From Psychroserpens luteolus (lineage in GTDB: Bacteria; Bacteroidota; Bacteroidia; Flavobacteriales; Flavobacteriaceae), in assembly GCF_021032705.1 (NCBI RefSeq), contig NZ_JAHVXI010000001.1, positions 868,001 to 932,000 on the forward strand: a stretch of 64,000 nt of DNA, given 5' to 3'. The notes under the pieces were generated by a model, which was not told the DNA's origin, made no database searches, and saw nothing but the letters and a program-made list of their open reading frames with translations. The translations under genes and the position numbers were made by a program. Numbering within the stretch: the stretch's first letter is position 1; each line of letters starts with the position of its first letter. Positions 5,283 through 21,462 of the stretch are shown here, in pieces.

Positions 5283-6734
5283 ATGAAATATCTTTATATT
5301 GCTTTAGCAATAGCTCTCACTCTTTTTAGTTGCCAAGACACAAAAACGATCAAACCTACAACACTAACCATCAAGACCAATGTAGACACGGTTAGTGTTG
5401 CAAAAGTATTTAGACCTGTTAATGGTACTATATTATGGGATAATATCTTGGACGAATTCATCAAAAATGAAGGCGATTCACTTTCGGGAGATTTAAATAT
5501 AGAGGGCTCTGAAATAGTAAGGGTATTAGTTGGCGGAAAACGATTCAGAATGATTTTATTTCCTAACCAAAATTACGGAGTTGGGTTTCAAGATGACTCG
5601 AGAGTTTTTACTGGAGATAATGCCAAAGGACAAGAGGCTTTGAATGCATTTGATAGAACATATGCATCGAGTTTTACATTTTTAAATATCTTCACGCAAG
5701 ATACCACAGCTACTTTATTATCCAATCATATTTCAGACCTCAAAACTAAAGACATCTCAATTATAGATGACCTATTGAAAACAGAAGCTATAGATGCCGA
5801 TTTCTATGAGGTTTTAAAAACAGAGATTGATTATTATTATGCTGATGGTTTAGTTAACATTGCCAATTATAAGAGTGAGCGAGCAGAAGGTAAGACACTT
5901 AGAGATCTTAAAGATTTAATAGAAGCAACAAAGGTTGCTTTTCCTTTTACAGCTGAACAAAAACCAATAAACTGGGTAGACTATGTCATGGAAGCAGAAA
6001 TTCGACCAGCCATTGTAGAACGTTATAATAAAGAGGATCGAATACAATTTTTCAAATTGGATACGATTCATCATATATATAAAAGCATTATCAAACAGCA
6101 ACTAGAAGAACCATTTAGAGAACAGTTACTTGCTAATTATATACTGAATGCTTCTAGGCAAAACCAATATGAAAAGAGCTTAATCCAAATTTTTGATGAG
6201 TTCAATATGAATTATCCTGAGAGTGTTTACAGTTCATATCTTGAAAAAGATATTTCAAAAATTAGAACATACTATCAGAAAATTCAGGGAGAGTTACCAA
6301 AATCGGTGACGTTTGTAGAGGGCGAACAAATCAATACATTACAGGAGCTTCTTAAAGAGTTTGAAGGAGAGAAGCTTTATATTGACGTTTGGGCAACATG
6401 GTGTGGTCCTTGTAAACGTGAATTCGCCAATAACCATATGATAGTAGATATTCTTGAAGACAATGGTTATAAAAAATTATTTATTTCACTTGATCAACCA
6501 GAAGCAAAGGATAAGTGGATAGAGTTAATAAAATATTATGACTTATCGGGCTATCATCATTTGGCAAATCGAGAATTTTTTATTGATTTTGAAAAGAATC
6601 ATTCAGCGGTGAAAAATGGTATTGCCATTCCGCAATACCTATTAATTGACAGCAATGGGAAAATAATTACAAATACTGCCCCTCGGCCAGGAGATCCAGA
6701 TGCTATACTGAAATTAATTCAGGATCAATCTTAA
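5283..6734 (+). CDS. thioredoxin-fold lipoprotein (TlpA/ResA-like C-terminal domain)
   Basis: 483 residues from ATG 5283. That start gives a clean lipoprotein signal with LFSC and Cys17 as the lipidated residue, while an upstream in-frame ATG at 5223 would precede the signal and is rejected. The first 340 residues form an unassigned region typical of Bacteroidota TlpA-like proteins. The C-terminal third is a thioredoxin domain with WATWCGPCK, Cys374 and Cys377. It is probably an envelope thiol-disulfide oxidoreductase. It follows the polyketide operon but has its own leader, and I see no functional link. Confidence 0.82.
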   Translation: MKYLYIALAIALTLFSCQDTKTIKPTTLTIKTNVDTVSVAKVFRPVNGTILWDNILDEFIKNEGDSLSGDLNIEGSEIVRVLVGGKRFRMILFPNQNYGVGFQDDSRVFTGDNAKGQEALNAFDRTYASSFTFLNIFTQDTTATLLSNHISDLKTKDISIIDDLLKTEAIDADFYEVLKTEIDYYYADGLVNIANYKSERAEGKTLRDLKDLIEATKVAFPFTAEQKPINWVDYVMEAEIRPAIVERYNKEDRIQFFKLDTIHHIYKSIIKQQLEEPFREQLLANYILNASRQNQYEKSLIQIFDEFNMNYPESVYSSYLEKDISKIRTYYQKIQGELPKSVTFVEGEQINTLQELLKEFEGEKLYIDVWATWCGPCKREFANNHMIVDILEDNGYKKLFISLDQPEAKDKWIELIKYYDLSGYHHLANREFFIDFEKNHSAVKNGIAIPQYLLIDSNGKIITNTAPRPGDPDAILKLIQDQS

Positions 6735-14836: not shown

Positions 14837-16333
<1,497 letters not shown>

Positions 16334-16369
16334 CAAATATTTAACCCTATTGCGCAATCTTTTTGCGTA
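16334..16369 (-). promoter_or_regulatory. rtcB promoter with TACGCAA/TTGCGCA site at -33
   Basis: On the - strand: TACGCAAAAA (16369-16360), then the palindrome ATTGCGCAAT (16358-16349), then AATATTTG (16341-16334), a near-consensus -7 element. No TTG is present where -33 should be; TACGCAAAAA sits there instead, 18 nt before -7. The 21-bp block 16361-16381 recurs at 20283-20303. Confidence 0.6.
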
Positions 16370-16375
16370 GTATAA

Positions 16376-16889
16376 TTATTTTAATTTTCTAAATGTTAAA
16401 CTCATTCTTTCATTGTCTGTATTTGATCTAATTATGGCATGCTGCCATACATTTTTGAAACTCATTATTCATGTAAATTAATGAACCAGAAATAAGATTA
16501 AAGTCAACAATTGTCTCTCGATTTTCAATATTTCTAAAACGAAGTGTCCTTGTTTCACCAACAGAGACAATTACCACTCCTGTGTTTTCTATCAGTATGT
16601 CTGTTCGGTCAGAATGGAATCCCATTCTTGAATTTCCATTTTCATAATAATTGATCAAACAGTTGTTTGGTCTGAAGCATAGAAATTTTTCAATAGAAGC
16701 TATGATTTCTTTCATTTCTTGTGTGAACTGCTGAAAAGGATATTCCATCTGAGAGTAATTATAAGGTCTTCCAAAACTTGCAGTTTTTCTATTTACCATG
16801 CTCTCGTCCCAAATCGTATTACGCCTTAAATTTTCAAATAACAATCTGTGATTATTTAAAAAGCTTTCTCTGTAAGTTATTCCTTCCAT
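16376..16889 (-). pseudogene. AlkB-family 2-oxoglutarate dioxygenase, frameshifted near the 3' end
   Basis: The frame from 16889 gives 153 residues ending ...EFQKCMAACHN at 16428. The AlkB HxD motif is clear (His92, Asp94 in RMGFHSDR). The expected C-terminal His and Arg are missing in this frame. One base off, starting at the A5 run (16452-16456), the sequence reads FQNVWQHAIIRS...ERMSLTFRKLK to a TAA at 16376, supplying the distal His and the RxSLTFR motif. A single extra A therefore truncates the enzyme, unless it is a sequencing error or the site slips. Relatives demethylate alkylated nucleic acid, possibly tRNA here. Confidence 0.8.
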
Positions 16890-17002
16890 AATTTCATTAA
16901 ATTTTAATCACTTCGTTTAAAAATTCCGCCAGATTTTAGACTTATAAAAACCCAGCAGAATTTAATAATTAAGAATAGGAGCCTATTCCTCAGTGAAGTA
17001 AT

Positions 17003-17488
17003 TTATACAACCTTATCTGCACATGATGAACTCGCAAAAGCATAAGGCTTGGCCTTAAAAACAAACCCCATTCCAAGAATGTAGCCCATTGCATCTTTTA
17101 GAGCTACATTAGATTTAAATTTAGGATCTGTATTAATATCGGCATGAACCTCAAGTTCTACATTGTACGTATCTAAAATGTCACAAATCGAATATGCGAC
17201 CTCTACAGACATCGTTACTTCCTTAAGCATACGTTCTTTAATGCCAATATATTTTGTCCCTTTGTAATTTCTCATAAACATAAAACCACCTTTTCCTTCA
17301 CGCAGTATCACAATAACTGTTGCATATTCAACATGAGATTTATAGGCTTGAGAGTCTGAACCAACACAAATCTTTAAACGATGTCCGTTTTTTTGTTCTT
17401 TTACAATAGCATTTTCAATTACTTCGGTGATGGGTTGGTCAAAAACCTTCCCACTAAAGTTTCTCCATTTTTGTTGTACAATTTTCAT
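17003..17488 (-). CDS. YkuK-family RNase H-like protein
   Basis: 161 residues matching the YkuK (DUF458) ribonuclease H-like family. Acidic residues sit at expected active-site positions in VGSDSQ, in the helix KEVTMSVEVAY and in EVHADIN. A nuclease role on RNA or an RNA-DNA hybrid is predicted but not proven for the family. It starts 33 bp after the last tRNA of the array and on the same strand, so it is probably co-transcribed with the tRNAs. AlkB and RtcB follow. Confidence 0.8.
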   Translation of the reverse strand: MKIVQQKWRNFSGKVFDQPITEVIENAIVKEQKNGHRLKICVGSDSQAYKSHVEYATVIVILREGKGGFMFMRNYKGTKYIGIKERMLKEVTMSVEVAYSICDILDTYNVELEVHADINTDPKFKSNVALKDAMGYILGMGFVFKAKPYAFASSSCADKVV

Positions 17489-17520
17489 CTCTATTTAGTT
17501 TCTATTTAATAATTATGTTG

Positions 17521-17593
17521 TGGAACAAACTGGGATCGAACCAGTATTTTCGGAGCTTCAATCCGACGCATAGACCAACTTTGCTATTGTTCC
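17521..17593 (-). tRNA. tRNA-Phe(GAA)
   Basis: 73 nt. Acceptor GGAACAA/TTGTTCC, anticodon arm TCGGA-TTGAAGC-TCCGA, T-loop TTCGATC, discriminator A. Position 37 is G, unusual for tRNA-Phe. Confidence 0.9.
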
Positions 17594-17597
17594 TATT

Positions 17598-17670
17598 GGG
17601 TGATTCCGAGATTCGAACTCTGTTCTCCTCATTCACAGTGAGGTACTTTACCATATAAGCTAAAACCACC
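17598..17670 (-). tRNA. tRNA-His(GTG)
   Basis: 73 nt. Acceptor GGTGGTT/AATCACC followed by C, anticodon arm CCTCA-CTGTGAA-TGAGG, T-loop TTCGAAT. GG at the 5' end and CC at the 3' end suit histidine identity. The D-arm linker is one base long and the T stem has one mismatch. Confidence 0.85.
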
Positions 17671-17679
17671 ATATTTTAG

Positions 17680-17752
17680 TTCTGACAAAAGGAATCGAAC
17701 CTTTATCCACAAACGTATCAGGTTTGCACTTTACCAGTTAAGCTATGTCAGA
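17680..17752 (-). tRNA. tRNA-Ile(GAT)
   Basis: 73 nt. Acceptor TCTGACA/TGTCAGA is perfect, anticodon arm CAAAC-CTGATAC-GTTTG, T arm AAAGG-TTCGATT-CCTTT, discriminator A. Confidence 0.9.
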
Positions 17753-17758
17753 ATATTG

Positions 17759-17829
17759 TTAACCTGACAGGATTCGAACCTGTACCGAAAGATTCAAAGT
17801 CTTCCATGCTGCCGTTACACCACAAGTTA
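17759..17829 (-). tRNA. tRNA-Gln(TTG)
   Basis: 71 nt. Acceptor TAACTTG/CAGGTTA, D region TGGTGTAACGGCAGCA typical of Gln, anticodon loop CTTTGAA, T arm ACAGG-TTCGAAT-CCTGT, discriminator A. Confidence 0.88.
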
Positions 17830-17834
17830 TTTTG

Positions 17835-17907
17835 TAAGCTTAATAGGACTTGAACCCATATCACTAGATTCGTATTCTAGCATGTTATCCAATTACACCA
17901 TAAGCTT
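17835..17907 (-). tRNA. tRNA-Arg(ACG)
   Basis: 73 nt. Acceptor AAGCTTA/TAAGCTT, anticodon arm CTAGA-ATACGAA-TCTAG, T-loop TTCAAGT, discriminator A. A34 would need deamination to inosine to read all CGN codons. Confidence 0.88.
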
Positions 17908-17913
17908 ATATTG

Positions 17914-17987
17914 TACTCCACCCAAGATTCGAATTTGGACTTAAAGGCGCTTAAAACCTTTGCCTCTTCCAGTTGGGCTAGTGGAGC
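17914..17987 (-). tRNA. tRNA with TAA anticodon (Leu), class I shape
   Basis: 74 nt. Acceptor GCTCCAC/GTGGAGT (one G.U), anticodon loop TTTAAGC, T-loop TTCGAAT, discriminator A. The variable region is only about five bases, whereas bacterial tRNA-Leu is class II with a long variable arm. The D arm is also not Leu-like, so amino-acid identity is uncertain. Confidence 0.75.
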
Positions 17988-18060
17988 ATATGTTGCCTAC
18001 GCGCCACCTGGCACGTTTGCTTAAAATGTCTACTAGACATTTTTTTCACGCAACGCCCTG
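17988..18060. repeat. structured spacer 1 inside the tRNA array
   Basis: It holds a 9-bp palindrome AAATGTCTA-C-TAGACATTT (about 18025-18045) and a GC-rich hairpin CGCGCC-ACCT-GGCACG (about 18000-18015), flanked by GTTGC and GCAAC. No T-arm or canonical acceptor could be built. It resembles dispersed palindromic repeats of flavobacterial genomes. Confidence 0.5.
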
Positions 18061-18134
18061 TACAGGAAGAGAGATTCGAACTCTCAAAATCTTGTTTCTA
18101 AGACAAGAGCGTATGCCAATTCCGCCATTCCTGC
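18061..18134 (-). tRNA. tRNA-Leu(TAG) lacking the long variable arm
   Basis: 74 nt. Acceptor GCAGGAA/TTCCTGT, D region TGGCGGAATTGGCATACGC (clearly Leu type), anticodon arm CTTGT-CTTAGAA-ACAAG, variable loop only ATTTT, T arm GAGAG-TTCGAAT-CTCTC, discriminator A. The class II variable arm has been lost. Confidence 0.88.
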
Positions 18135-18139
18135 ATTAG

Positions 18140-18213
18140 TTGAGATGCCAGGAGTCGAACCTGAATCCTTCGCCTTATGAGAGCGATGCTCTACCAGATT
18201 AAGCTACATCTCA
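18140..18213 (-). tRNA. tRNA-Met(CAT), elongator-type
   Basis: 74 nt. Acceptor TGAGATG/CATCTCA with a 1-72 pair, which excludes an initiator; anticodon loop CTCATAA, T-loop TTCGACT, discriminator A. An Ile(CAT) tRNA with lysidine modification is possible. Confidence 0.85.
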
Positions 18214-18218
18214 ATATG

Positions 18219-18343
18219 TTGAGGTAATAGGATTAGATCACATGACCCTATTTCTTTTTGTTTGAGTTCGTGAATGCGTTGCATTTCGAACCTATGACTC
18301 TCACGATGTAAGCGTGACGCTCTTACCACTGAGCTATACCTCA
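18219..18343 (-). tRNA. tRNA-Val(TAC) interrupted in the T-loop by a 52-nt insertion
   Basis: 125 nt. Acceptor TGAGGTA/TACCTCA, D arm GCTCAGTGGTAAGAGC, anticodon arm TCACG-CTTACAT-CGTGA. The T arm is ATAGG-TTCG|insertion|AAT-CCTAT. Removing 18235-18286 leaves exactly 73 nt with a perfect T arm. Discriminator A. Confidence 0.85.
18235..18286 (-). repeat. insertion element A in T-loop of tRNA-Val
   Basis: 52 nt inserted between TTCG and AAT. It begins AAATG, has a hairpin AATGC-AAC-GCATT, contains ATTCACGAA and ends GATCT. Exon GTTCG can pair with intron CGAAC just beyond the hairpin. Flanking AA is present on both sides. Confidence 0.75.
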
Positions 18344-18348
18344 ATTTG

Positions 18349-18474
18349 TACTCTATAAGGGAGTCGAACCCTTGTCTTCCGATAGAAATGAGTTTACGAA
18401 TTCAACGAAACCTATTTCTTTAATTTGCATGAGTGAGTTAAAGTCGGATGCACTAACCACTATGCTAATAGAGT
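18349..18474 (-). tRNA. tRNA-Glu(TTC), probable, interrupted in the anticodon loop by a 54-nt insertion
   Basis: 126 nt. Acceptor ACTCTAT/ATAGAGT perfect, D region TAGCATAGTGGTTAGTGC, T arm AAGGG-TTCGACT-CCCTT, anticodon stem TCCGA/TCGGA. Using the insertion boundaries shared by the other copies, the loop is CTTTCTA (anticodon TTC, Glu) and the product is 72 nt. A 38/39 boundary would give TTA instead. Confidence 0.7.
18386..18439 (+). repeat. insertion element C in anticodon loop of tRNA-Glu (opposite orientation)
   Basis: 54 nt. Read on the + strand it begins AAATGAG, contains ATTCAACGAA and CCTATTT, and ends GAGTT, flanked by AAA on both sides. It is closely related to copy D but lies antisense to its host tRNA. 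Confidence 0.75.
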
Positions 18475-18479
18475 CTATT

Positions 18480-18566
18480 TTTATGGCGTTACCCTATTGG
18501 GTCAGGCTTTCGGTAGTCGCTCTCTGCGAGGAGCTTCAACAGTACCTCAATCCTTAACGCAAATTG
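18480..18566 (+). repeat. structured spacer 2 (GGCGTTACCC ... TTAACGC palindromic repeat)
   Basis: It starts GGCGTTACCCTATTGGGT and ends CCTTAACGC, with an internal GTCGCTCTCTGCGAGGAGC stem. The terminal inverted GCGTTA/TAACGC and CCC...GGG hairpin match the style of dispersed intergenic repeats I associate with flavobacterial genomes. CGCAA-A-TTGCG at 18558-18568 abuts the next tRNA. Confidence 0.55.
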
Positions 18567-18638
18567 CGGTTCATACGAGATTCGAACTCGTATCTCCCAA
18601 GAGACAGTCGGGAAGGATAGCCATTACCCCAATGAACC
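18567..18638 (-). tRNA. tRNA-Asp(GTC)
   Basis: 72 nt. Acceptor GGTTCAT/ATGAACC, D region TGGGGTAATGGCTATCC, anticodon loop CTGTCTC, T arm ACGAG-TTCGAAT-CTCGT, discriminator G as expected for Asp. Position 37 is T, unusual. Confidence 0.88.
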
Positions 18639-18645
18639 AGTTTTG

Positions 18646-18717
18646 TACATCTACTAAGAATCGAACTTAGACATGGAGATTAGAAATCTCCTGTGCTATC
18701 CATTACACCATAGATGC
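18646..18717 (-). tRNA. tRNA-Arg(TCT)
   Basis: 72 nt. Acceptor GCATCTA/TAGATGT (one G.U), anticodon arm GGAGA-TTTCTAA-TCTCC, T arm CTAAG-TTCGATT-CTTAG, discriminator A. Confidence 0.9.
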
Positions 18718-18723
18718 CTGATG

Positions 18724-18805
18724 TGGGAATTATAGGATTCGAACCTATTTAGCAATCGCACCAGTTTTACAGACTGGCTCAACTCTCCAACGTTGACGTA
18801 TTCCC
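18724..18805 (-). tRNA. tRNA-Tyr(GTA)
   Basis: 82 nt, class II with a short variable arm (TGCGATTGC). Acceptor GGGAATA/AATTCCC with one A.A mismatch, anticodon arm CCAGT-CTGTAAA-ACTGG, T arm ATAGG-TTCGAAT-CCTAT, discriminator A. Confidence 0.88.
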
Positions 18806-18813
18806 TTATGTTG

Positions 18814-18887
18814 AGACAAGGATGAGATTTGAACTCATAAAAACCAGTTTTGCAGACTGACGCCTTAACCAATTCGGCCACCTTGTC
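18814..18887 (-). tRNA. tRNA-Cys(GCA)
   Basis: 74 nt. Acceptor GACAAGG/CCTTGTC, anticodon loop CTGCAAA, T arm ATGAG-TTCAAAT-CTCAT, discriminator T, which fits Cys identity. Confidence 0.9.
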
Positions 18888-18892
18888 TTTAG

Positions 18893-18964
18893 CGATACCG
18901 ATAGGATTCGAACCTATAGCCTGTCGGTTAACAACCGACTGCTCTACCATTGAGCTACGATATC
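18893..18964 (-). tRNA. tRNA-Asn(GTT)
   Basis: 72 nt. Acceptor GATATCG/CGGTATC (one G.U), anticodon arm GTCGG-TTGTTAA-CCGAC, T arm ATAGG-TTCGAAT-CCTAT, discriminator G as expected for Asn. Confidence 0.9.
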
Positions 18965-18970
18965 ATATTG

Positions 18971-19043
18971 TGGAGCTACGGAGACTTGCACTCCATTCTG
19001 CGAGTTGCAAACCCACTGTTTTGGCTTGTTAAACTATAACCCC
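18971..19043 (-). tRNA. tRNA-Ala(TGC) with altered T-loop
   Basis: 73 nt. Acceptor GGGGTTA/TAGCTCC contains the G3.T70 alanine identity pair. Anticodon loop TTTGCAA, discriminator A. The T-loop reads TGCAAGT, so position 55 is G in place of the near-universal T. Confidence 0.82.
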
Positions 19044-19050
19044 ATTTTTG

Positions 19051-19137
19051 CGGAGAGTAAGAGAATCGAACTCTTACTGCATTTAAGCAGACTTGCTTAG
19101 CAGGCAAGCACAACAAACCATTATTTGTCTACTCTCC
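19051..19137 (-). tRNA. tRNA-Ser(GCT)
   Basis: 87 nt, class II with variable arm CTGC-TTAAAT-GCAG. Acceptor GGAGAGT/ACTCTCC, anticodon arm CTTGC-CTGCTAA-GCAAG, T arm AAGAG-TTCGATT-CTCTT, discriminator G as in Ser. Confidence 0.9.
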
Positions 19138-19233
19138 AATAATTATTCTATTCTGAGAGGCAGGATTGACGTCGTCTCTCCTGTTGTATCTCCTTGCTAA
19201 TCAAATTCAAGCAAGCTTGATTTGATTGTTTCG
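19138..19233. repeat. structured spacer 3 with tRNA-Pro 3' end duplication
   Basis: 19152-19167 repeats the 3' end of tRNA-Pro (19234-19249) with 15 of 16 bases identical. Between the copies are the palindromic CAGGATTGACGTCGTC block and a long hairpin, TCAAGC-AA-GCTTGA extended by AATCAAA/TTTGATT (about 19199-19228). Confidence 0.65.
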
Positions 19234-19306
19234 TCTGAGAGACAGGATTCGAACCTGCAACCTCTCGCTTCCAAAGCGAGTAAACTAGCCATCGTTCTCC
19301 TCTCAG
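19234..19306 (-). tRNA. tRNA-Pro(TGG)
   Basis: 73 nt. Acceptor CTGAGAG/CTCTCAG, anticodon arm CTCGC-TTTGGAA-GCGAG, T-loop TTCGAAT, discriminator A. Confidence 0.9.
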
Positions 19307-19327
19307 TTTTGCGGAAGGAGTGGGGTT

Positions 19328-19380
19328 AGCTCATGTGATTTTTATTTTATTAAATAGGAATTCGTGAATGCTTTGCATTT
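19328..19380 (-). repeat. insertion element B in T-loop of tRNA-Ser(TGA)
   Basis: 53 nt at the same T-loop position as copy A (TTCG|AAC). It begins AAATGC, has the hairpin AATGC-AAA-GCATT, contains ATTCACGAA and CCTATTT, and ends GAGCT. The first 25 nt are nearly identical to copy A; the 3' half differs. Confidence 0.75.
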
Positions 19381-19415
19381 CGAACCCACACGAGTCATAA
19401 TCTCCGAACACTTTT

Positions 19416-19470
19416 AACTCAAAGAATACTATTTCTATAAATAGGATTCGTTGAATTCGAACCCTCATTT
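19416..19470 (-). repeat. insertion element D in anticodon loop of tRNA-Ser(TGA)
   Basis: 55 nt between TTTG and AAA. It begins AAATGAG, contains ATTCAACGAA and CCTATTT, and ends GAGTT. It aligns over most of its length with copy C, which lies in the opposite orientation. Confidence 0.75.
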
Positions 19471-19513
19471 CAAAACTGTGGCCACCGCCAATTGGCTTGT
19501 CCTTCCTATGTTG

Positions 19514-19587
19514 TTGACGCAGTGAGAGTCGAACTCACATCACCTCGATTAAAAGTCGAGTGCTCTAGCCAGTTAAGCTACACGTCA
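19514..19587 (-). tRNA. tRNA-Lys(TTT), first gene of the array
   Basis: 74 nt. Acceptor TGACGTG/CACGTCA-type pairing with two G.U, anticodon arm CTCGA-CTTTTAA-TCGAG, T arm GTGAG-TTCGACT-CTCAC, discriminator A. Confidence 0.9.
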
Positions 19588-19611
19588 TCTTATTGTTTTA
19601 ATACACACCAT

Positions 19612-19645
19612 AAAAAAAGCACCTCGTTTTACGGAAGGTGCTTTT
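19612..19645 (-). terminator. rho-independent terminator between array promoter and tRNA-Lys
   Basis: On the - strand AAAAGCACCT pairs with AGGTGCTTTT and continues into a run of seven Ts. It lies 24 bp upstream of tRNA-Lys and just downstream of a 41-codon ORF. No other promoter is visible before the array, so it may act as an attenuator. Confidence 0.75.
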
Positions 19646-19668
19646 CTTAATTTTATAAATACATCAAC

Positions 19669-19794
19669 TCATGTATCTATAACCTTCCTATAGTATATGT
19701 TTAATCCGGCATCACAACTAAATATGACTTCAATTCGCTTCGGTTCGAGCGACCAGATCATGTATTGAATTATATGTTGTAAATAATTTTGCAT
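19669..19794 (-). CDS. 41-residue leader ORF upstream of the tRNA array
   Basis: ATG at 19794, 26 nt after a CATATTTG -7-like element, then 41 codons beginning MQNYLQHIIQ and a TGA at 19669, 24 nt before the terminator. No family is recognised. Position, size and the terminator fit a leader peptide of a transcription attenuator, or a small mRNA in its own right. Translation is unproven. Confidence 0.4.
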   Translation of the reverse strand: MQNYLQHIIQYMIWSLEPKRIEVIFSCDAGLNIYYRKVIDT

Positions 19795-19819
19795 TATTAT
19801 GTTGTTTGTTTTGATGGTG

Positions 19820-19855
19820 CAAATATGAAGCCAATTTTTTAATTACGCAAGAAAA
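19820..19855 (-). promoter_or_regulatory. putative promoter of leader ORF and tRNA array
   Basis: On the - strand: CTTGCGTAATTA (19851-19840), a spacer, and CATATTTG (19827-19820). TTGCGTA is the half-site of the palindrome upstream of the CAP-WYL operon. Confidence 0.5.
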
Positions 19856-20033
19856 TTTTAATTTAATTTATTGATAATCAAACAGTTAGACTAAATATAA
19901 ACAATAGAATTCCTGTCCGTTTTTTAACGGATAATGTACATGTTATACAATAGTCTGTCTCCCAATTGTTTCACTGTTTATTAGATCTCTATTTTACGTT
20001 TTATTGCTTCAGAATCATTTTTTAAAAAAAATT

Positions 20034-20064
20034 AAAAAAAAACGTCCAACTTTTAGGTTGGACG
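20034..20064 (-). terminator. terminator after the 39-residue smORF
   Basis: CGTCCAAC / GTTGGACG, 8-bp stem, 6-nt loop, followed on the - strand by a long T-run. Confidence 0.85.
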
Positions 20065-20100
20065 CTTCATATTATGGTTTTAATAGTATTTAAATTATAT

Positions 20101-20220
20101 TCAACTCTTAAAAATAGATACAAAACGTCCTTGTAGGGAATTCAGTAAAATGACTGCCCATTTATAATCGCATTCACTAAAGCGCGACATCGGTTGTTTA
20201 TGTATCTGTTGTTTTACCAT
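20101..20220 (-). CDS. 39-residue small ORF in its own transcription unit
   Basis: ATG 20220 to TGA 20101, beginning MVKQQIHKQP and containing CDYKWAVILL. A TATATTTG -7 element lies 35 nt upstream and a strong terminator 36 nt downstream, so this is a compact unit of about 200 nt. It is basic overall with no known family. It could be a small protein or simply sit within a regulatory RNA. Confidence 0.45.
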   Translation of the reverse strand: MVKQQIHKQPMSRFSECDYKWAVILLNSLQGRFVSIFKS

Positions 20221-20254
20221 TTTATATTGTAAATATACTTTTTTATTTATACTG

Positions 20255-20291
20255 CAAATATAATTCCATTAATATGCACTGTTTTTGCGTA
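20255..20291 (-). promoter_or_regulatory. smORF promoter with TACGCAAAAA at -33
   Basis: TACGCAAAAA (20291-20282), 19 nt, TATATTTG (20262-20255), a perfect -7 element. The arrangement matches the rtcB promoter (18-nt spacer), and the flanking 21-bp block 20283-20303 is identical to 16361-16381. Confidence 0.6.
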
Positions 20292-20323
20292 GTATAATTA
20301 TTTTTCTTCTTTTTTATTCATTT

Positions 20324-20881
20324 TTAAAATGGAGGTTCCCATATTTTTTTACTCATAATGGCTTTGACTTCTTCGTAGGTTATCGGATAGAAATCGTGAC
20401 AATCTACACCAACATCAAAACTGTTCATTGTTGGGTCGTCTGTTAAACTTCCATGTGAATGGCCGTAAAGGTGCCATGTTCCTCTAAAGCTTGATCGCCA
20501 TACACGCATTGCATAATGTAAGAGTATGATTTTCTGCTTACCATTTGGCGCCTCTTCATCATTAACATTGAGTTCGAAATAATCTTTTATCCATTCAAAT
20601 CGGTTTGGGTTTGCCAAGGCAGCACCTTCGTGATTGCCTCGAATTAAAAAGATATGTCCGTTTAATTGCTCAAGTATGTCTCGCATTCGCTCGGCTTTAC
20701 AGAGTCCGAAATCACCTAAGTGATAGACCTTATCATGTTTATTGACTCGACTATTCCAGCGTTTTATGAGTTCTTGGTCCATGTCTTCTACACTACCAAA
20801 TGGACGATTGGTGAATTTTATAATATTCTCATGACCAAAATGATGGTCTGAAGTGAAATATATATTTCTAGTTTTATTCAT
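20324..20881 (-). CDS. calcineurin-like metallophosphoesterase
   Basis: 185 residues. The complete metal-binding set is visible: SDHHFGH, HLGDFG, RGNHE, an LHYA histidine and GHSHG. Small stand-alone members act on phosphodiesters and are frequent in phages and RNA-repair contexts. It lies upstream of the tRNA array on the same strand and 32 bp after the TPR gene. A role in processing RNA 2',3'-cyclic ends is conceivable but is inference from context only. Confidence 0.82.
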   Translation of the reverse strand: MNKTRNIYFTSDHHFGHENIIKFTNRPFGSVEDMDQELIKRWNSRVNKHDKVYHLGDFGLCKAERMRDILEQLNGHIFLIRGNHEGAALANPNRFEWIKDYFELNVNDEEAPNGKQKIILLHYAMRVWRSSFRGTWHLYGHSHGSLTDDPTMNSFDVGVDCHDFYPITYEEVKAIMSKKIWEPPF

Positions 20882-20913
20882 GTTTTCTAATATGTTTTTA
20901 TGAAAAGGATTGC

Positions 20914-21462
20914 TTAATCCTTCTTCTTTTTTTGCTTCCCTTTTTTTGTTTTTTTCTTTTTGGAAGCTTTCTTTTTCTTTGGTTTTATCTTGTTTTTAAC
21001 TCTTGTTATTTCAGAATCGATAAACGCCATAAAACTGTTGTTGTATACGTACAACTTTGCTTTTTTAAAAGTTTTCAATGCTTTTTTATACGCGTCTTGA
21101 CATTCTAAAAGCTGTGCCTGTAATACCATAAGCTCGCCTTTTTGAATTGACTTTACTGTAAGTGCAAAATCGATTAATTTTTGCGCTTCATCATAATCAT
21201 GATTCCAAATCAAAACCAAGATGTACTTTGGATAAACTTTTACAAAATCCATCTTACTAGCTAAGGCTTCAGCAAAATAATATTTGGCTTTTTCGTAATC
21301 GCCAAGCTGTTCCGATTGTAATCGTCCCATGAGATATAATGCATATGCATTAGTGTTCTCGTAAGACAACGCATAATTTAGATTTTCTACAGTTTCTTCT
21401 AAATCGTATGGATAAGCATCTATGGCTTTAAGCACGTAATTATTTAACAAATTCGTGTCCAT
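20914..21462 (-). CDS. TPR-repeat protein with poly-lysine tail
   Basis: 182 residues. Helical repeats with TPR character (ALYLMGRLQSEQLGDYEKAKYYFAEAL, about residues 37-64, and a second around 105-135) are followed by a C-terminal tail made almost entirely of lysine (about residues 157-182). The tail suggests nucleic-acid or acidic-surface binding. It is followed by the phosphoesterase in the same direction, probably as an operon. No specific function is known. Confidence 0.65.
   Translation of the reverse strand: MDTNLLNNYVLKAIDAYPYDLEETVENLNYALSYENTNAYALYLMGRLQSEQLGDYEKAKYYFAEALASKMDFVKVYPKYILVLIWNHDYDEAQKLIDFALTVKSIQKGELMVLQAQLLECQDAYKKALKTFKKAKLYVYNNSFMAFIDSEITRVKNKIKPKKKKASKKKKTKKGKQKKKKD

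Follow-up and report, generated by a model that had tools for sequence, protein, structure and literature searches.

Short inserts in the loops of structured RNAs are known from the tRNA introns of Archaea and eukaryotes, which interrupt the anticodon loop or the T-loop, and from the intervening sequences of rRNA, short hairpin inserts in loops of the 23S rRNA. Here we describe a family of two-hairpin DNA elements, four copies of which (inserts A to D) interrupt three tRNA genes within a 64,000-nucleotide stretch of the flavobacterium Psychroserpens luteolus (Flavobacteriaceae; contig NZ_JAHVXI010000001.1, positions 868,001 to 932,000; from here on, the window). As in archaeal and eukaryal tRNA introns, these are short loop inserts with an RtcB ligase encoded nearby; however, no endonuclease gene was found, the copies occur in both orientations and most of those collected lie outside tRNAs. 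Unlike the intervening sequences of 23S rRNA, they are found in tRNAs and introns, at the start of genes and in spacers.

Among the kinds already described, the closest is that of the Rickettsia palindromic elements (RPEs). The part of PMC2229807 that deals with their features describes them, in Rickettsia, as 105–146 bp long, with long stem-loops and terminal inverted repeats, inserted in frame in protein genes and also present in the tmRNA and M1 RNA genes. The element described here shares with them the condition of a dispersed small palindrome found in frame in open reading frames (ORFs) and inside RNA genes, but it is mostly 43–58 bp long, has two hairpins, belongs to the Bacteroidota and has tRNA loops among its hosts. 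Short hairpin repeats, i.e., repetitive extragenic palindromic (REP) sequences and others tagged by CGTC or GTAG, are dispersed in bacterial genomes including those of Bacteroidetes, as stated in the relevant portion of PMC3733652. Ours is likewise a short dispersed hairpin repeat, although it lacks the GTAG/CGTC tag, is built of two different hairpins, shows no link to Y1 transposases here and enters tRNA genes. With miniature inverted-repeat transposable elements (MITEs) it has in common being short, apparently non-autonomous, dispersed DNA, but there are no terminal inverted repeats, at most AA is duplicated and no parent transposon was found. A search of the openly licensed literature in PubMed Central gave no description of the element; the matches to its motif letters had unrelated titles among the matches listed, mostly animal studies, and probably correspond to primers. 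Small palindromic repeats as a kind are already known, but the present family seems to be new, and so does its preference for tRNA loops.

Four related inserts in three tRNA genes

The window is part of a Flavobacteriaceae chromosome, labeled G000 (G designates genomes and L loci throughout). A sequence-only reading of it had pointed to four related inserts of 52–55 nt, and both their coordinates (Table 1) and their common anatomy, AAATG...ATTCA(A)CGAA...GA[T/G][C/T]T, proved right. This anatomy is found four times in the window, compared with a mean of 0.005 (maximum 1) in 200 first-order Markov windows. In silico removal recovers the three tRNAs, as that reading had held, although the ARAGORN lengths (74, 73, and 88 nt) are each one more than the 73, 72, and 87 nt it gave, and the arms are intact except for the anticodon stem of tRNA-Ser(TGA), the gene that holds two inserts, in which there is one G-G mismatch (ACAGT/AGTGT). 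The orientations can also be refined: A, B, and D are in the sense of their host tRNA and C is antisense. The exact cut is ambiguous by 2–3 bases because the element begins with AAA and AA comes after it.

Table 1. Coordinates and strands of the inserts, their host genes and neighboring features in the window (^ marks an insertion point or element boundary, here and in the text).
Feature	Position	Strand	Description
Insert A, 52 nt	18235..18286	-	T-loop of tRNA-Val(TAC), sense, TTCG^AAT; two-hairpin element; CM R1 48.1 bits
Insert B, 53 nt	19328..19380	-	T-loop of tRNA-Ser(TGA), sense, TTCG^AAC; CM R1 66.4 bits
Insert C, 54 nt	18386..18439	+	Anticodon loop of tRNA-Glu(TTC), antisense, ATAG^AAAG on + strand; CM R1 36.3 bits
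Insert D, 55 nt	19416..19470	-	Anticodon loop of tRNA-Ser(TGA), sense, TTTG^AAAA; CM R1 40.0 bits
tRNA-Val(TAC) interrupted by A	18219..18343	-	ARAGORN after in silico removal; Rfam RF00005 weak, 29.3 bits, 3' end cut off
tRNA-Glu(TTC) interrupted by C	18349..18474	-	Rfam RF00005 59 bits, insert included; ARAGORN after removal
tRNA-Ser(TGA) interrupted by B and D	19312..19506	-	ARAGORN after removal
tRNA gene array	17520..19587	-	ARAGORN and Rfam
RtcB-family RNA ligase, 467 aa	14837..16240	-	Same strand as array; Pfam PF01139, 3.3e-38
RNaseH-like protein adjoining array	17003..17488	-	Pfam PF04308, 1.1e-34

Group I or II introns are not indicated: besides tRNAs, Rfam gave no match in the window above the gathering cut-off, and the inserts are only 52–55 nt long. 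Even at E<=5, the region 18200–19500 matched only tRNA and, below threshold, unrelated families. A covariance model (CM R1), built from 68 elements with A–D among the training set, scores the four at 36–66 bits in the window, the next best match having 12.4.

A conserved two-hairpin structure

A scripted collection of 108 hits was reduced, by removing L057 and duplicates, to 100 and then to 96 distinct sites with 97 distinct elements. Nearly all of the latter (93 of 97) measure 43–58 bp, and four measure 65–68 bp. Their layout is A[AAT..ATT]C[ACGAAY..RTGAG(C)T] followed by AA, i.e., two adjacent hairpins: P1 pairs AAT with ATT and has a variable tip, and P2 pairs ACGAAY with RTGAG(C)T, closing an AT-rich loop. 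The element is non-coding and its consensus runs AAAT...TGAGTAA. On 68 aligned elements, 92.7% of the cells are paired, and at most 33.6% when the alignment is slid by 1–3 columns. Double-change cells amount to 37 vs. 11.2 in shuffles, with none of 500 shuffles as high (six D-type rows were out of register in this count). At the Y:R position the 97 elements have T-A (47), C-G (37), T-G (5), A-T (1), or another combination (7), and pairing is also kept in divergent P1 tips such as AACGC/GCGTT (L251) and AACCGC/GCGGTT (L247, L249). P2 may be written as A-U, C-G, G-A, A-G, A-U, and Y-R, which would include a tandem GA. For the core, hammerhead and kink-turn motifs were weighed by eye and dropped; Rfam had no match.

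There are no terminal inverted repeats, the left end (AAAT) and the right end (GAG(C)T) of the consensus not being complementary. The element is flanked by AA on both sides, an arrangement in which duplication of AA and insertion before a single AA look the same; it is possible that at most AA is duplicated at the target.

Empty sites and tRNA hosts

Comparison with uninterrupted orthologs, as proposed by the sequence-only reading, gave empty sites for A, B, and C. In the sibling genome G006, which has the same kind of array, the Val gene (99% identical to that of the window) is devoid of A, and the Ser gene (93% identical) contains D but not B. Ser is uninterrupted in G015, which belongs to the same genus. 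For C, the Glu gene of G284 (93% identical), which has no insert, serves as the empty site; it is preferred because the Glu gene of G006 is a different one (62%). Therefore, insertion is precise and variable inside the genus. With gaps ignored, inserts at the same site can resemble each other more than their host tRNAs do (94% vs. 72% for insert B in the Ser genes of G000 and L070, and 90% vs. 68% for the Arg genes of G284 and G146). These two comparisons suggest that inserts have arrived laterally more than once and have not coexisted with their hosts for long; at several sites they may be recent. Since same-site inserts can exceed their hosts in likeness, descent of a shared insert was rejected as proof of splicing.

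In the collection, 18 inserts lie in tRNA genes that yield ARAGORN tRNAs on removal. Additional copies were found in Arg of G010 (two, T-loop sense and anticodon-loop antisense), Ser of G006 (one), and a second Bizionia tRNA locus (L198, ~5340–5560, genome G406), where a tRNA-Leu(TAG)-like gene has, by eye, one sense copy in the T-loop. Not all the tRNA copies are independent events; with this in mind, T-loop copies are sense in 11/11 cases (two identical Bizionia records counted once) and anticodon-loop copies are sense in six and antisense in five, the antisense ones being known in Glu, Gln, and Arg tRNAs. Insert D, with its CAACGAA core and TT tail, represents a subtype (CAACGAA or CAGCGAA core) restricted to anticodon loops in 6/6 distinct elements, and it is also present in the Ser genes of G006, L077, and two Bizionia records. 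In the latter hosts the anticodon stem shows a double change, T-A in L077 vs. A-T in Bizionia, with pairing kept.

Some antisense-interrupted tRNAs are intact (Glu in G000 and Arg in G284: 17/17 pairs). One T-stem mismatch seen by eye in Arg of G010 counts against intactness. Decay of the interrupted genes as pseudogene damage, which the sequence-only reading had named as an outcome contrary to its proposal, was seen only in isolated cases such as a Tyr remnant (L030, genome G003). In a Tyr-like tRNA body of G380 (L197/L060), the anticodon would be GAA if the exons were joined exactly; this points either to a loss of bases on insertion or to a change in the gene.

Target sites and distribution

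The base preceding the element is G at 57 and C at 31 of the 96 sites, and the one following the AA is A at 64 and T at 26; the target is (G/C)^AA(A/T). The targeting of tRNA loops proposed by the sequence-only reading is thus part of a broader pattern, loops being among the hosts while 78 of the 96 collected sites lie outside tRNAs. The contexts include tRNA loops in both orientations, group II introns, positions after start codons, and spaces between genes. A sense copy is found inside a group II intron match (RF02001, 77 bits) in L066, and two sense copies flank a marginal one in L083 (32.3 bits vs. a cut-off of 32). Copies directly after ATG (21 sites) have a length divisible by three in 18/21, compared to 32/79 elsewhere; 15/21 have no stop inside the element and 6/21 have one in frame. 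Many of these 21 sites correspond to one gene family in several species, and hence to fewer independent events. In L099, L103, L106, L107, L142, and L145, from several species, the copy after ATG gives an N-terminal MKS[KQ]IHEY- extension, and the extended gene sits downstream of what looks, by eye, like a conjugation-type ATPase gene.

Repeat-type hairpins hold some copies (L148, L149, L151–L153). In L148 and L149 the loop of such a repeat is the insertion site (CTTGATAC^AAAAGAACC or AAAACGAACC), so that one mobile repeat is nested in another; we take this hairpin repeat to be common in flavobacteria. In L141 two elements stand in tandem, joined as GAGCT^AAAT. The palindromic spacer between tRNAs at ~18480–18560 of the window (...ACCTC^AATCCTTAACGC) looks like an empty target, because in L117 (genome G060) an element is placed at the matching spot, between ...GCCTC and AATCCTTAACGC.

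A–D are members of an element family widespread in Bacteroidota. Of 299 family genomes, 53 had matches to a loose pattern, 80 in total (including one inside another); the reversed pattern gave two. With a 20-base probe from A/B, 29 loci were found in GTDB contigs: 24 with the full right end, three with a one-letter variant of it, and two unrelated (L078, a Sphingobacterium, and L082, a Facklamia). Presumably 26 of the 27 true loci are Bacteroidota, judging by their names, and the exception is an unclassified metagenome-assembled genome (L084). A C-type pattern with two mismatches allowed matched in 70/397 genomes, nearly always at two mismatches, and its exact form only in C, D, and G435. Other copies in the same genome, which the sequence-only reading had proposed to search for, do exist: CM R1 at E<=0.05 has 10 matches in G000, and 19 of 23 genomes of the genus have matches. 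Two exact patterns gave no match in IMG/VR.

The tRNA array and its neighborhood

The array contains 16 tRNAs by ARAGORN with the inserts in place and 19 after their scripted removal, plus one at 18971–19043 matched by Rfam only. G000 also has Val(TAC), Glu(TTC), and Ser(TGA) genes without inserts at other places, and the array is a spare tRNA set. A phage origin was considered and rejected: array DNA matched 612 phage records, none covering >80% of the query, and the 20 places listed each span 3–4% of it, about one tRNA.

Beside the array are the RtcB and RNaseH-like genes (Table 1) and one for a 2OG-Fe(II) oxygenase. ORFs resembling the RNaseH-like protein adjoin arrays in the relatives L021, L193, and L199, by eye. 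The whole region 14837–21462 has the appearance of an RNA-repair neighborhood, with RtcB, RNaseH-like, 2OG-Fe(II) oxygenase, TPR, and calcineurin-like genes flanking the spare array. In L199 and L193 it includes an extra RtcB paired with an RF-1-domain (PrfH-like) protein, and in L199 also a T4 Rnl2-like RNA ligase. A second RtcB is found near the array in G284, G406, G146, and G380, and its pairing with the RF-1-domain protein was recognized by Pfam in L199 and L193 and by eye in L196 and L197. This pair is like the RtcB2-PrfH pair described in PMC9223846, which, according to the portion of that paper that concerns protection, gives none from tRNA-targeting toxins.

In G010, L022:11294–11406 (-) encodes a tRNA-like RNA with a large insert in the anticodon loop; Rfam scores it as tRNA with 48.7 bits over 113 nt. 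An RtcB gene is close by, the adjoining gene codes for a 613-aa protein that Pfam does not match, and motifs like GTTCCTATAA recur alongside the RNA. We assume that this RNA may be a Y-RNA-like tRNA mimic. Identification of the 613-aa protein as TROVE/Ro60 was dropped, as there was no Pfam match.

Discussion

We consider that A–D are non-autonomous mobile DNA elements, moved in trans and generally not spliced, and would assign to this interpretation a probability of about 0.7. Of the two options offered by the sequence-only reading, introns spliced by proteins or a tiny mobile element, the latter is largely supported by the large dispersed family with its conserved structure, the precise insertion, and the empty sites in relatives. 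An enzyme supplied in trans would recognize both hairpins, probably while the DNA is single-stranded, and would paste the element next to AA, at (G/C)^AA; the hairpin loops of tRNAs and those of certain repeat-type hairpins would be favorable targets. It is probable that the interrupted genes are not spliced but silent, of poor function, or hit only recently. The cell may tolerate copies in these tRNA genes, since the array is an extra set and the same tRNAs have intact genes at other places.

Several observations weigh against this interpretation. Movement itself we infer from the dispersal and the empty sites. The AA after the element was demanded by the search script, and the copy in the Leu gene of L198 has AG instead. 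Strong hairpins surround 12.9% of 62 sites that are neither in tRNAs nor after ATG, a modest excess over 4.1% of 2348 sites of the same loci and 2.5% of 2480 shuffles, and a stricter junction test for placement in hairpin loops gave no excess; universal targeting of hairpin loops was therefore dropped. Two measures of covariation that are robust to relatedness do not exceed the shuffles, namely the pairs changed on both sides (3 vs. 2.4, with 247/500 shuffles as high) and the further pair types (8 vs. 6.2, with 50/500 as high). Thus, it is mainly the Y:R pair and the tip of P1 that support covariation. Each insert was also folded by itself as RNA, and a stability above that of shuffles was obtained for D but not for A, B, or C. 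In tRNAs long dead one would expect an excess of decay, which the sense-interrupted ones do not have: 4/204 stem pairs are mismatched in 12 of them, compared with 68/2601 in 153 uninterrupted tRNAs (and 3/68 in four antisense-interrupted ones), a count that left out one of the two Bizionia records, Ser of G006, Arg of G010, and Leu of L198, L200 having no tRNA. As for the enzyme, among 22 element-bearing genomes Y1_Tnp was found in nine (none in G000 or G006), an IS110-type transposase in nine, and a reverse transcriptase in six (none in G000 in either case), and 0/19 Y1 loci had an element nearby. With no consistent co-occurrence and with their absence from G000, these three kinds were discarded as mobilizers. 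Inspection by eye of the 25 ORF clusters printed from within 1.5 kb of the elements revealed no recurrent transposase-like ORF, and no longer, gene-bearing version of the element was seen.

The sequence-only reading's other option was splicing by proteins. In its RNA-level form, a nuclease would cut both ends of the element in the precursor and the neighboring RtcB would join the exons into normal tRNAs. We regard this as unlikely, in spite of the low decay of the sense-interrupted tRNAs, the Ser(TGA) anticodon stem that stays paired through a double change, and the presence of a tRNA ligase near the window array, with RtcB-family genes within ~10 kb of several arrays (~9 kb in G010). There is no fixed link with RtcB, as among 16 loci around RtcB matches only two (L021 and L031) have an array within the stretch, and among the six other genomes with interrupted arrays a long RtcB matches in five (with internal stops in G284 and G146), whereas G435, with an interrupted Phe gene, has no RtcB match. 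The fact that 11/11 T-loop copies are sense, although TTCGAA is palindromic and, in the Leu case, AA is present on the other strand only, would also fit splicing, but the bias is partly due to the preference for A/T after AA, and several of the T-loop copies may be one event. The intron interpretation is also opposed by the lack of matches to the tRNA-intron endonuclease (PF01974), with 0/9 genomes positive, four archaea among 14 control genomes being positive, by the antisense copies in Glu, Gln, and Arg, some of them in intact tRNAs, by post-ATG copies that are mostly in frame as if translated (though 6/21 contain a stop), by the intact duplicate Val, Glu, and Ser genes, and by inserts that may be recent. 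In the Val and Glu precursors, folded as single sequences, no obvious bulge-helix-bulge was seen by eye, no dedicated search having been made. Slightly less probable still seems a hybrid in which the mobile two-hairpin element also leaves the precursor tRNAs, through a ribonuclease or through the way it folds, and the nearby RtcB does the sealing. If true, this would be the first case of protein-ligated tRNA introns in Bacteria, and the spare arrays of an RNA-repair island would be where they are kept.

About as improbable as RNA-level introns is that the elements are REP sequences of the kind moved by REP-associated tyrosine transposases, or other repeats derived from IS200/IS605, mobilized by a Y1 HUH transposase that acts on hairpins in single-stranded DNA. 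The hairpin ends, the lack of terminal inverted repeats and of a clear target duplication, both orientations, and the copies in repeat-type hairpins would agree with it, but the consensus has no GTAG or CGTC end and the Y1 distribution given above does not follow that of the elements. Random pseudogene damage, with a chance likeness of the four inserts, can find some comfort in the one Ser stem mismatch and in the decayed Tyr gene of a relative. However, we give it practically no credence, since the family is large and dispersed and chance similarity is ruled out by the Markov control (4 vs. 0.005 copies expected per window) and by the reversed pattern (80 vs. 2).

Taken as a mobile element, this is a very small one that follows a clear target rule, is sharply structured as two hairpins, is spread over a phylum and has no known enzyme; finding the enzyme could reveal a new mobility system based on single strands or hairpins. 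The analysis also exposes a flavobacterial RNA-repair neighborhood in which RtcB and spare tRNAs are joined, in relatives, by the pair of RtcB and a release-factor-like protein and by a T4 Rnl2-like ligase. The repeated entry of the element into tRNA loops, with several of the arrays near RtcB, provides natural test cases for protein-mediated tRNA splicing in bacteria.

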